From contig DATGHL010000041.1 in the NCBI GenBank assembly GCA_035308025.1, positions 1 through 64,000 on the forward strand: a stretch of 64,000 nt of DNA, in the 5' to 3' direction. Below are positions 60,163 through 63,257 of the stretch, in pieces. The notes under the pieces are model-generated. The model was not told the origin of the DNA. It searched no databases and worked only from the letters and a program-made list of their open reading frames with translations. The stretch comes from Candidatus Binataceae bacterium. Its GTDB lineage: Bacteria; Desulfobacterota; Binatia; Binatales; Binataceae. A program made the position numbers and the translations under genes. Positions within the stretch are counted from its first letter, which is position 1; each line of letters begins with the position of its first letter.

Positions 60163-60187
60163 CTAGTTCGCTGAGTCATTAGCAGCA

Positions 60188-60227
60188 ACGGCTCGGGCGC
60201 CATCGCGCTCGGGCCGTTCGCGTTTTT
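60188..60227 (+). terminator. Rho-independent terminator after korB
   Basis: ACGGCTCGGGC (60188-60198) pairs with GCTCGGGCCGT, allowing two G-U pairs, followed by five T at 60223-60227. Confidence 0.7.
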
Positions 60228-60312
60228 CCATAATTCCGCTCTCTTAGCCCCATCCTCGGAGCCTTATATTCGGGCCGCTGTGCGTTTGCACCGAAAGCCT
60301 GAGGGCCAGAGG

Positions 60313-60341
60313 TTGACAAGAATGTCGGAACATTCTAGGAT
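60313..60341 (+). promoter_or_regulatory. Promoter with inverted-repeat operator upstream of the SeqA-like gene
   Basis: TTGACA (60313-60318) and TAGGAT (60336-60341) are 17 bases apart. Between them lies the perfect dyad AGAATGT-CGGA-ACATTCT (60319-60336). A third half-site ACATTCT follows at 60350-60356. A repressor bound here would shut the promoter. Confidence 0.75.
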
Positions 60342-60374
60342 TCTCTCTGACATTCTCGTTTTAGAGGCGGAACA

Positions 60375-61022
60375 ATGAAGTTAATTGAAATCGATGATCA
60401 GCTTTATGACTTTCTGGTCGCGCGCCAGCAGCGCTTCAACGAAAGCCCGACAGAAGTAATCTGGCGCGAATTGAAGAGTGGCGAGATGAGCAGCCGAACT
60501 TCGACACAAGGGCAAAACGGGGCTTACATCGATGTAGCTAGAGATCCACTGGGAGATGACATAAGCGCAGCTCTGGAGGATTTCCTGGGGTCCAGCGAAA
60601 AGATGCGAGTCAGAGACGTCAAAAGCCGGTTTCTCGAGATCCTATCCTGGATTGCGCAAAACAATCCACGATTATTCGCAGAGGCCGCTGTACCCGCTAT
60701 GAACAACCGGGCCAGCAGGCGGAAGTATATCTCCACGAGCAAACGCGAACTCGAAGAAGCAGGAAAAAGCGCGAACGTACATCCGATTCCCGGCACAGAA
60801 TATTGGTTCGATACTCGGAATTCCACGTCACGCAAGAAGGAAATTCTCGCGGAGGCTCTTGGAGCCCTTGGTTTTGGACCCGATAGCGTGAGGACCGCCT
60901 GCGGCATGCTCGGCTCGACCATTTCTGACGAAGCAGTCGGTACCTCGGGGATGAGGAAGCGGGGGCGCTTCGATCGCGTGCAGCACGCGAGTTTTGACAA
61001 TCTCAGTGATGATGACGAGTAA
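60375..61022 (+). CDS. SeqA-like DNA-binding protein
   Basis: 215 aa, GAGGCGG ribosome site. Residues 1-35 (MKLIEIDDQLYDFLVARQQRFNESPTEVIWRELK) match the SeqA N-terminal multimerisation helix-strand. Residues 80-180 match its DNA-binding domain: KSRFLEILSWIAQNNPRLFAEAAVPAM, IPGTEYWFDTRNSTSRKKEILAEALGALGFGPDSVRTACGML. Compared from memory with E. coli SeqA, PGTxYW-x2-T, RK and the end align. The two asparagines that contact hemimethylated GATC fall on R148 and S150 here. A basic-then-acidic C-terminal tail (183-215) is extra. SeqA sequesters new origins in Gammaproteobacteria; what this one binds is unknown. Confidence 0.75.
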   Translation: MKLIEIDDQLYDFLVARQQRFNESPTEVIWRELKSGEMSSRTSTQGQNGAYIDVARDPLGDDISAALEDFLGSSEKMRVRDVKSRFLEILSWIAQNNPRLFAEAAVPAMNNRASRRKYISTSKRELEEAGKSANVHPIPGTEYWFDTRNSTSRKKEILAEALGALGFGPDSVRTACGMLGSTISDEAVGTSGMRKRGRFDRVQHASFDNLSDDDE

Positions 61023-61048
61023 ACGTACAAAGCGCGAGGAGAATGTGA

Positions 61049-61323
61049 TGTTACAGGACGAACAGGTGTTGGATATCGTTCGACTTCAGTTGCCGGGTAT
61101 TTTGGAGGTCTATCGAAAGAAAGACTTCTTGTTGTGGCGGAACGCGAAAGATGGGAGCGCTCAAGAGGTGTCGTTGGAAGTTCTCGATGCTGGTCCTAAC
61201 TTCGATTCTGAGCGGCGATTCACGTGCGTCGCGAGGACCTCCAATGGCAGATCAGCGAAGGGTAACTCTGCCCGAACAGTTGAGACGGCGTTGGCTTTAG
61301 TGCACTGGTGGGATCTAGATTGA
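61049..61323 (+). CDS. Small protein of unknown function in the SeqA-like operon
   Basis: 90 aa from the ATG at 61049 with GAGGAG upstream; a longer frame from 60994 overlaps the SeqA-like gene and is unlikely. MLQDEQVLDIVRLQLPGILEVYRKKDFLLWRNAKDGSAQEV ... RTVETALALVHWWDLD. Not recognised. It lies 26 bp after the SeqA-like gene, so it is probably co-transcribed and may be a partner. Confidence 0.65.
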
Positions 61324-61412: not shown

Positions 61413-63257
61413 TTACGGCGCGCAGACCGCGTGCCCACGTTTGAGGCAGGCTTGCAGTGGCGTCAGGACTGGGTGCGCTAGTCCCAGGAACTCAATTGCA
61501 GATGATGAACCGCCCACCCAGACGTTGCCGGCGGCATCGAGCACGATCGACCCGAGATTTTGGTTCGACGCTGCTGTTAAGCTGAGCCCGCGTTGGTAAC
61601 CGCTTGCAGCAGTGAGTTCGCTCAGATTTCCCGAAGCGTTCGTTGCGAAGACGTTAGCCGCGGAATCGAGCGCGATAGTGGTCGTGAAGGCATATCCGCC
61701 TGTGAGACCTGCGCCGACGGGAGCGAAGCTCAGAACGCCGGCATATTCGCTGGCCGCGGTGAACTCGACGACACTGTTGTCTGTCTGCCCGAAGAGATTC
61801 CCGCCGGCGTCCAGCGCCACTGCCGTAATCGACTGGCTCGCGCAGCCGGCACAGGGCTCGTGCAGGACCGTCGCGTAATTGGAGGCGTTCGTGAATATGC
61901 TCACGCCGCTCGTGACGTGACCGAGGGGGGCCGCATTCGGCACGAAAATGTCCCCCGCCGCATCCAGCACCGGCGGCTCGCTGGGCACATAGTCTGTGTT
62001 GGAATCAACCAGGTTAGCGGCGGTGGCGTAACCGCTCGACGCGGTCAACTCGCTAATGGCGCCGGAGCTGTCAAGCACAAAAAGGTTGTCTGAAATATCC
62101 AACGCTATGCCGTATGGGGCATTTAGACCCGAGGGTTGGAAAAGAGACCCGGCACTGTAGTTACTTACCTTGGTGAGCTCGCTCACGCCGGTGTCGGCGT
62201 GATCTGTCGCAAAAATATTGCCGGCCGTGTCGAGGGCAACGAAAAAGTCCTCGAACAGACCGGCCGTCGACGGGCGGAGCTTCAAAATTGTTCGATAACT
62301 GTTGGCAGCCGTAAGCTCAAAGACCACGCTGCCCGCAGCGTTAAAAACGTTGCCTGCGCCGTCGATCGCTAATCCCAACGCCTCATTCGCCCCCAAAGCT
62401 AGCGCGATTTCGAAACCATCGGGAGCTGCCGCGAGCGTCGGCTGGTAAGGACGAGTCGCCAGTAACGCCTGAATGTCGAACAAAGCTTTAACGTTAGACG
62501 AGGGATTCGCCGCCATCGCGTACGCCGCCGCCAGCGTGTTCCCCGACGTGCCGGTATCAGCGAATAACTCGCTGCAGGCCGTTGAGTTCGGCCCCGCACC
62601 GCCCGCACATGCGGCGATGATGTCGGCGAGCGTGTCGGACCGTTCGAGGCTGTTGCAATTTTCCACCGGATTCGTTGAACAAGCGTCTGCCGCAGGCAAG
62701 AACCTTGACGGTCCGCCGCTAATCGAATAGCCCCGGCTGACCTCGACCGCGACGAGGTTGTAGTAACTCTTGTACGCAAGTGCCAGCCCAGCGGCATTGG
62801 TCGCTGACGAACCGATAATCTCACCGCTCGCATCAATAAATTGCGTGAGCGCCCACTCGGTCCCCACGGTGGTTCGCTCGTTCAGGTTTATGCTGGCCGT
62901 TGACCGGATATTTCCGCATGGTCCGATGGCTGCAATTAAACCGATAGCGGGATTGCTCAACCCTTTCACGCTTCCGCCGGTCGCGGCGACGTAGGTCAAG
63001 ACGCTGCTGGACGGGCAGGTGTAGTTGACGGTGTAGTTCCCGCCGGTCGCGCTCGCCGTGGCGTCAAGCACCGTTGCGCCGGCGCCATATCCGGTATTTC
63101 CGACGGCATACAGCGTCACGGTTGCGCCCGCCACCGCTCCTCCGTCGGCTAGAACTTTTCCCGTGAACGACGCCGCATTGGCCGTACCAATGCACGTCTG
63201 TCCCAAAGTTATGATTGTTGTCAATACAATCGCCAATACAAGCAAAGATGACTTCAT
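61413..63257 (-). CDS. Secreted NHL-type beta-propeller protein
   Basis: 614 aa. A signal peptide ends at IGTANA. It is followed by a carboxypeptidase-regulatory-like beta domain (ASFTGKVLADGGAVAGATVTLYAVG), a helical middle part, and then a string of NHL-like blades: EALGLAIDGAGNVFNAAG, FFVALDTAGNIFATDHADTGVSELT, APYGIALDISDNLFVLDSSGAISELT, ITAVALDAGGNLFGQTDNSVVEFT, TTIALDSAANVFATNASGNLSELT, GSIVLDAAGNVWVGGSSSAIEFLG. The blades contain repeated ELTAASGY motifs. Exported, role unknown. Confidence 0.8.
   Translation of the reverse strand: MKSSLLVLAIVLTTIITLGQTCIGTANAASFTGKVLADGGAVAGATVTLYAVGNTGYGAGATVLDATASATGGNYTVNYTCPSSSVLTYVAATGGSVKGLSNPAIGLIAAIGPCGNIRSTASINLNERTTVGTEWALTQFIDASGEIIGSSATNAAGLALAYKSYYNLVAVEVSRGYSISGGPSRFLPAADACSTNPVENCNSLERSDTLADIIAACAGGAGPNSTACSELFADTGTSGNTLAAAYAMAANPSSNVKALFDIQALLATRPYQPTLAAAPDGFEIALALGANEALGLAIDGAGNVFNAAGSVVFELTAANSYRTILKLRPSTAGLFEDFFVALDTAGNIFATDHADTGVSELTKVSNYSAGSLFQPSGLNAPYGIALDISDNLFVLDSSGAISELTASSGYATAANLVDSNTDYVPSEPPVLDAAGDIFVPNAAPLGHVTSGVSIFTNASNYATVLHEPCAGCASQSITAVALDAGGNLFGQTDNSVVEFTAASEYAGVLSFAPVGAGLTGGYAFTTTIALDSAANVFATNASGNLSELTAASGYQRGLSLTAASNQNLGSIVLDAAGNVWVGGSSSAIEFLGLAHPVLTPLQACLKRGHAVCAP

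Follow-up and report, generated by a model that had tools for sequence, protein, structure and literature searches.

A divergent SeqA homologue with altered DNA-contact residues in a Dam-bearing bacterium outside the Gammaproteobacteria

A gene for a diverged SeqA homologue was found in a draft genome of Candidatus Binataceae that also carries genes for Dam-family methylases. It lies in the window, the stretch of 64,000 nucleotides that was analysed (assembly GCA_035308025.1, contig DATGHL010000041.1, positions 1 to 64,000). The protein has the domains and the predicted fold of the SeqA family, and residues that contact GATC and residues of the oligomer interface are changed. The gene has the character of a small island and is rare among relatives of the host. 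E. coli SeqA binds freshly copied, half-methylated DNA, on which Dam makes the mark, and SeqA is regarded as belonging to the Dam cohort of the Gammaproteobacteria. The reading that we prefer, with about even confidence, is that the seqA-like gene was acquired together with the adjoining ORF2 into a Dam-bearing family and that its product works like SeqA in outline, with altered contacts. The N-domain would pair the subunits, and the C-domain would bind GATC sites that the resident Dam has methylated and that replication has just left hemimethylated. Once bound, the protein might hold or mark either a few local sites or the DNA that trails the fork. R148, S150 and S114, which replace N150, N152 and R116 of E. 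coli, would alter the contact chemistry, and the oligomer interface would probably be altered too. The protein is probably not a dedicated partner of oriC sequestration and mismatch repair as in E. coli. Taken together, the protein is judged to be an acquired, divergent SeqA variant whose natural partner Dam is present, with hemimethylated GATC as its putative target. The features of the locus are listed in Table 1.

Table 1. Features of the seqA-like locus, with the two Dam-family genes of the host genome (G000)
Feature	Position	Strand	Basis
seqA-like gene, 215 aa, ATG start	60375..61022	+	Pfam match of both domains; phmmer against PDB; fold comparison
Parts of the protein: SeqA_N oligomerisation domain; linker; SeqA-C DNA-binding domain; tail	residues 1-31/35; ~36-60; ~61-179; 180-215		
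Codons of R148-N149-S150, aligned with N150-T151-N152 of E. coli, which contact hemimethylated GATC	60816..60824	+	alignment with 82 SeqAs; PMC6225831
C-terminal extension of ~36 residues (180-215), acidic end LSDDDE, absent from other SeqAs	60912..61019	+	alignment; pLDDT
Terminator-like GC-rich hairpin and T run after korB, parting seqA from the korAB operon	60185..60226	+	by eye; inference
Sigma-70-type promoter-like TTGACA-N17-TAGGAT upstream of seqA	60312..60342	+	by eye; inference
Operator-like inverted repeat (perfect, 7 bp) within the promoter spacer, AGAATGT-CGGA-ACATTCT	60319..60336	.	sequence; genome pattern search
ORF2, 91 aa, 25 bp after seqA, own AGGAG, GC3 0.587	61048..61323	+	sequence; no family match
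First Dam-family gene, between the core genes uppS and cdsA	G000:C12:54497-55399; L009:1441-2346	-	
Second Dam-family gene	G000:C22; L008:1444-2680	+	

Family membership and predicted fold

The sequence-only reading had recognised both SeqA domains in the order of the family. Searches with the Pfam profiles, using the curated gathering scores as thresholds, agreed with this. SeqA_N (PF17206) matched residues 1-31 with 29.7 bits (cut-off 23), N-terminal to the SeqA C-domain (PF03925), which matched residues 71-174 with 53.3 bits (cut-off 25.5). E. coli SeqA (3fmt) was aligned by phmmer across residues 1-178 with E = 3.7e-12. These scores ruled out a chance open reading frame as the explanation of 60375-61022. 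The SeqA equivalog model of NCBIfam also gave a full-length match (E = 1.3e-21), and the similarity to SeqA was upheld in the profile searches. However, the score of 77.4 bits fell far short of the equivalog threshold (185), which meant that the protein was a diverged relative and not a typical SeqA.

Structure prediction, a further check named in the sequence-only reading, gave a consistent result. An AlphaFold2 model was made from an input alignment with 34 gammaproteobacterial SeqAs. Its mean pLDDT was 72.5, with values mostly around 80-90 in the C-domain. The modelled C-domain superposed on the E. coli SeqA complex with hemimethylated DNA (1lrr; Z 19.8, 1.3 Å, 118 residues). Since SeqA relatives were part of the model's alignment, this match tests whether the sequence is compatible with the fold and does not prove it independently. 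SeqA-DNA complexes in general were matched at 1.2-1.3 Å, Foldseek was also run, and the modelled N-domain gave Z 4.5 against 1xrx. By sequence and fold together, membership of the SeqA family is secure, and we hold it with near certainty. The protein can be called a homologue and not an assured functional equivalent of E. coli SeqA, judging from the equivalog score and from the residues described below.

Reading loop, oligomerisation residues and tail

As in gammaproteobacterial SeqA (E. coli 1lrr and 3fmt), the two domains stand in the same order and are joined by a flexible linker. The protein keeps the conserved N-terminal MKxIExDD..LY and, in E. coli numbering, the scaffold residues R118, Y120, W146, T153, R155 and K156. 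In contrast, it is 24-35% identical to the gammaproteobacterial SeqAs compared, carries the changes N150R, N152S, R116S, T18Q, I21F and A25P, and has an extra tail.

The GATC contacts of SeqA are R116, T117, R118, N150 and N152, and the residues essential for oligomerisation are T18, I21 and A25 (PMC6225831). Conservation at these positions was scored in 82 gammaproteobacterial SeqAs. The reading loop aligned without gaps, with W144, T151 and R153-K154 of our protein as anchors, and this alignment agreed with the earlier claim that the GATC-reading residues were replaced as R148 and S150. In the case of N150, asparagine was found in all 82 known proteins and arginine in none. In the case of N152, asparagine was found in 81 and serine in one. 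R116 of E. coli corresponded to S114, and R118 was retained as R116 in the numbering of the protein. The five contact positions 116, 117, 118, 150 and 152 therefore read S, R, R, R and S, with R118 alone kept. Since serine stands at position 116 in 9 of the 82 known SeqAs and position 117 is variable, the truly unusual changes were those at 150, 152, 18, 21 and 25. The last three, where Q, F and P replaced T, I and A, lie beyond what the sequence-only reading had noticed, and none of the oligomerisation residues was kept. The replaced reading asparagines and the three changed oligomerisation residues count against the preferred reading.

The sequence-only reading had also described a new C-terminal tail of 33 residues. 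The tail indeed had no counterpart in other SeqAs, but its length was about 36 residues. It was modelled at pLDDT of about 43-61 and without secondary structure.

Locus, acquisition and distribution

The seqA-like gene lies directly downstream of ligA-korA-korB. Host KorB shared 90% identity with KorB of the sister species and 83-87% with KorB of other genera of the family, which indicated that the contig is the host's own and not foreign. GC3 was 0.588 in seqA, close to that of ORF2, against 0.80-0.81 in ligA, korA and korB. The region 3' of korB differed among the genomes. It held seqA, ORF2, a 614-aa gene and then an amidohydrolase gene in the host, smpB in the sister species, and a glutathione-transferase-like gene followed by the amidohydrolase gene in another relative (G002). 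No counterpart of the seqA-orf2 stretch was found 3' of korB in G001, G005 or G002. In Arsenophonus and Shewanella records the neighbour of seqA is pgm, in contrast to korAB and ORF2 in the host. With their low GC3 and a site that is absent in relatives, seqA and ORF2 look horizontally acquired. The low GC3, the patchy presence and the variable site after korB spoke for the transferred module that had been suggested earlier.

The same data bear on whether the gene is assembly contamination or a decaying gene without function. The host genome is a draft (3.63 Mb, 57 contigs), GC and GC3 of the gene are unlike those of its neighbours, and SeqA was seen in only one other sampled relative. However, the contig is 69 kb long, and immediately before the gene stands korB, which shares 90% identity with its counterpart in the sister species. 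The frame is intact and is preceded by promoter-like and ribosome-binding sequences. Moreover, contamination from a sampled SeqA lineage is ruled out, as no sampled gammaproteobacterium matches the protein at more than 35%. We consider this explanation very unlikely.

ORF2 is likely on the same transcript as seqA, as its position suggests. It had no protein-family match, and its single-sequence model was of low confidence (pLDDT 55). One relative with 30% identity was found, an unannotated protein encoded on a mobilizable actinobacterial (Citricoccus) plasmid, where mobC and relaxase genes lie nearby. PADLOC gave no match for seqA or ORF2, and membership of a defence system was ruled out on this basis. 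The 614-aa protein (61413-63257, minus strand) has a signal-peptide-like start and repeated Leu-Asp-Ala-Gly-Asn-rich, propeller-like motifs, and no Pfam match. The palindrome in the putative promoter was the sole copy in the genome at 0 or 1 mismatch, and the next matches carried 2 mismatches. Membership of a regulon through this palindrome was therefore ruled out. That seqA might regulate itself through it is a guess.

A further possibility is that the reading of methylation was lost and that the protein serves a mobile element as a general or sequence-specific DNA-binding protein. It could, for example, be a regulator of plasmid origin whose binding site is its own palindromic operator. Consistent with such a role, the key asparagines and the oligomerisation residues are lost, a private perfect palindrome stands in the gene's own promoter and nowhere else in the genome, and the only relative of ORF2 lies on an actinobacterial mobilizable plasmid. 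However, the neighbours of seqA that were looked at included no relaxase, integrase or plasmid gene. The homology of ORF2 is a single match at 30%, and in the protein the fold of SeqA and the majority of the conserved C-domain scaffold residues are retained. We regard this possibility as unlikely.

The host was placed with GyrA because SSU rRNA was absent from its assembly. Host GyrA was 52-53% identical to those of Clostridioides, Paenibacillus and Priestia and about 50-51% identical to those of E. coli and Proteus. Such values would be unexpected in a gammaproteobacterium. Being about equally distant from E. coli and Firmicutes, the host is not gammaproteobacterial, as the sequence-only reading had supposed. 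Of 148 genomes of the class, two had SeqA above the cut-off, namely the host and G436, from another genus of the same family. In the phylum sample, it did so in the host only (1 of 395 genomes). It was missing from the sister species and from 22 further relatives of the family. The best 80 of at least 498 confirmed relatives in the GTDB contig collection were all gammaproteobacterial, although the search patterns were derived from the SeqA alignment and rare non-gammaproteobacterial SeqAs may be missed. In a quick tree, the branch of the protein was saturated and fell outside all of the orders, a placement that is unreliable owing to the branch length. Recent transfer from a sampled gammaproteobacterium was ruled out on this tree, with the same reserve about placement, as the branch was nested in no order. 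No SeqA was found in phage records or viral contigs when the protein, the alignment or E. coli SeqA was used as the query, and a phage origin was ruled out accordingly.

The SeqA of G436 (contig C526, 110 aa visible) comes from the same GTDB family and matched the SeqA C-domain with 100 bits. Like seqA of the host, its gene is low in GC for its contig (54% against 62%). In contrast to the host protein, it keeps R116 and N150, has D at N152 and lacks the tail; its N-domain falls in an assembly gap. It was 47-49% identical to Alteromonadales SeqA and 31% identical to the host protein, and thus looks like a separate acquisition or a far less diverged copy. This suggests that there may have been two separate acquisitions in the family, or one old and one recent. 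The small contig of G436 could be mis-binned.

Dam methylases, GATC sites and related proteins

A search for adenine methyltransferases, which the sequence-only reading had put forward as a check, yielded two MethyltransfD12 genes in the host, and other N6/N4 methylases in the genome. Both exceeded the TIGR00571 Dam cut-off (198 and 188 bits against 115), and their nearest PDB entries were E. coli Dam and DpnM. Both keep intact NR-x2-YNGLCR and NVPFG(R/K)YK of E. coli Dam, stretches known from Dam structures to contain the GATC contacts. Dam of the uppS-cdsA type was found in 22 of 23 relatives of the same family (G020 had a fragment only) and in none of 14 genomes from other families of the class. 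This near-universal presence of Dam in the host family was also new relative to the sequence-only reading. The second Dam is 60% identical to the first. It adjoins a PD-(D/E)XK_11 nuclease ORF and a toxin-antitoxin-like UPF0175/DUF3368 pair, and for this reason may belong to a GATC-type restriction cassette. Judging from these genes, the GATC mark that SeqA reads is very likely made in the host.

It had been proposed that the protein might read another methylated motif. On this alternative, the C-domain would read a different motif, methylated or unmethylated, with R148 as a new major-groove contact, and the motif would possibly be set by another methylase. Among 83 SeqAs, no other had N150R and only one other had N152S, with the scaffold residues kept, and the other N6/N4 methylase genes leave room for such a partner. 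However, the two Dam-family methylases with their GATC motif intact already supply the usual substrate, so that a new motif need not be invoked. No methylase adjoins seqA. In addition, the loop of the G436 protein, TNNDTPKK, is near-canonical, which suggests that GATC can be read in this background. Of the earlier proposal, the difference in the base-reading residues stood, and we consider retargeting unlikely. If it were true, the N150R/N152S loop would make the protein an epigenetic reader of new specificity on a SeqA scaffold, outside the Gammaproteobacteria.

For the preferred reading, in which hemimethylated GATC is bound, targets are plentiful, as GATC occurs about 9 times per kb, or 0.95 times as often as a Markov model predicts. 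Upstream of dnaA, 563 bp held 3 GATC (28% of windows had the same number or fewer), and the cumulative skew of the contig showed no turn at dnaA, so that the origin may lie elsewhere. In E. coli, oriC has 11 GATC in 245 bp. The lack of a GATC cluster upstream of dnaA would count against the preferred reading if the origin lies there. In the 458 kb sampled, the densest GATC groups lay inside coding regions, for example gyrA and atpA, and GATC clusters were set aside as SeqA targets. Origin sequestration of the E. coli style by the host SeqA found no support in these sequences.

MutH, which belongs to the Dam cohort with Dam and SeqA, had no match in the host genome. In another genome of the family (G007:C5, L129:1234-2876, minus strand), a DNA methylase gene is immediately followed by the gene of a 201-aa protein of the MutH family. 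This protein is probably not a repair protein but a MutH/Sau3AI-type restriction enzyme.

The role of Dam in a lineage mostly without SeqA and MutH becomes a testable question. Since Dam is near-universal in the host family and SeqA is rare, the family offers a natural comparison of the same mark with and without a reader. With one reader whose contact loop is rebuilt, it also becomes testable which residues are needed to read hemimethylated GATC.

A weak SeqA-C similarity was also seen in a protein of 356 aa from another family of the phylum (G173:C136, L002:1441-2511, minus strand). It shares GRSRRY and WWVGTN motifs with SeqA, and its loop WWVGTNYSKS has S at the N152 position. Unlike the host protein, it scored 18.6 bits, below the cut-off of 25.5, has no SeqA_N and is fused to an HSDR_N-like restriction-type domain. 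Its matches in plasmids and phages covered mainly the nuclease half. This combination of domains may make it a nuclease that reads DNA through a SeqA-like part.
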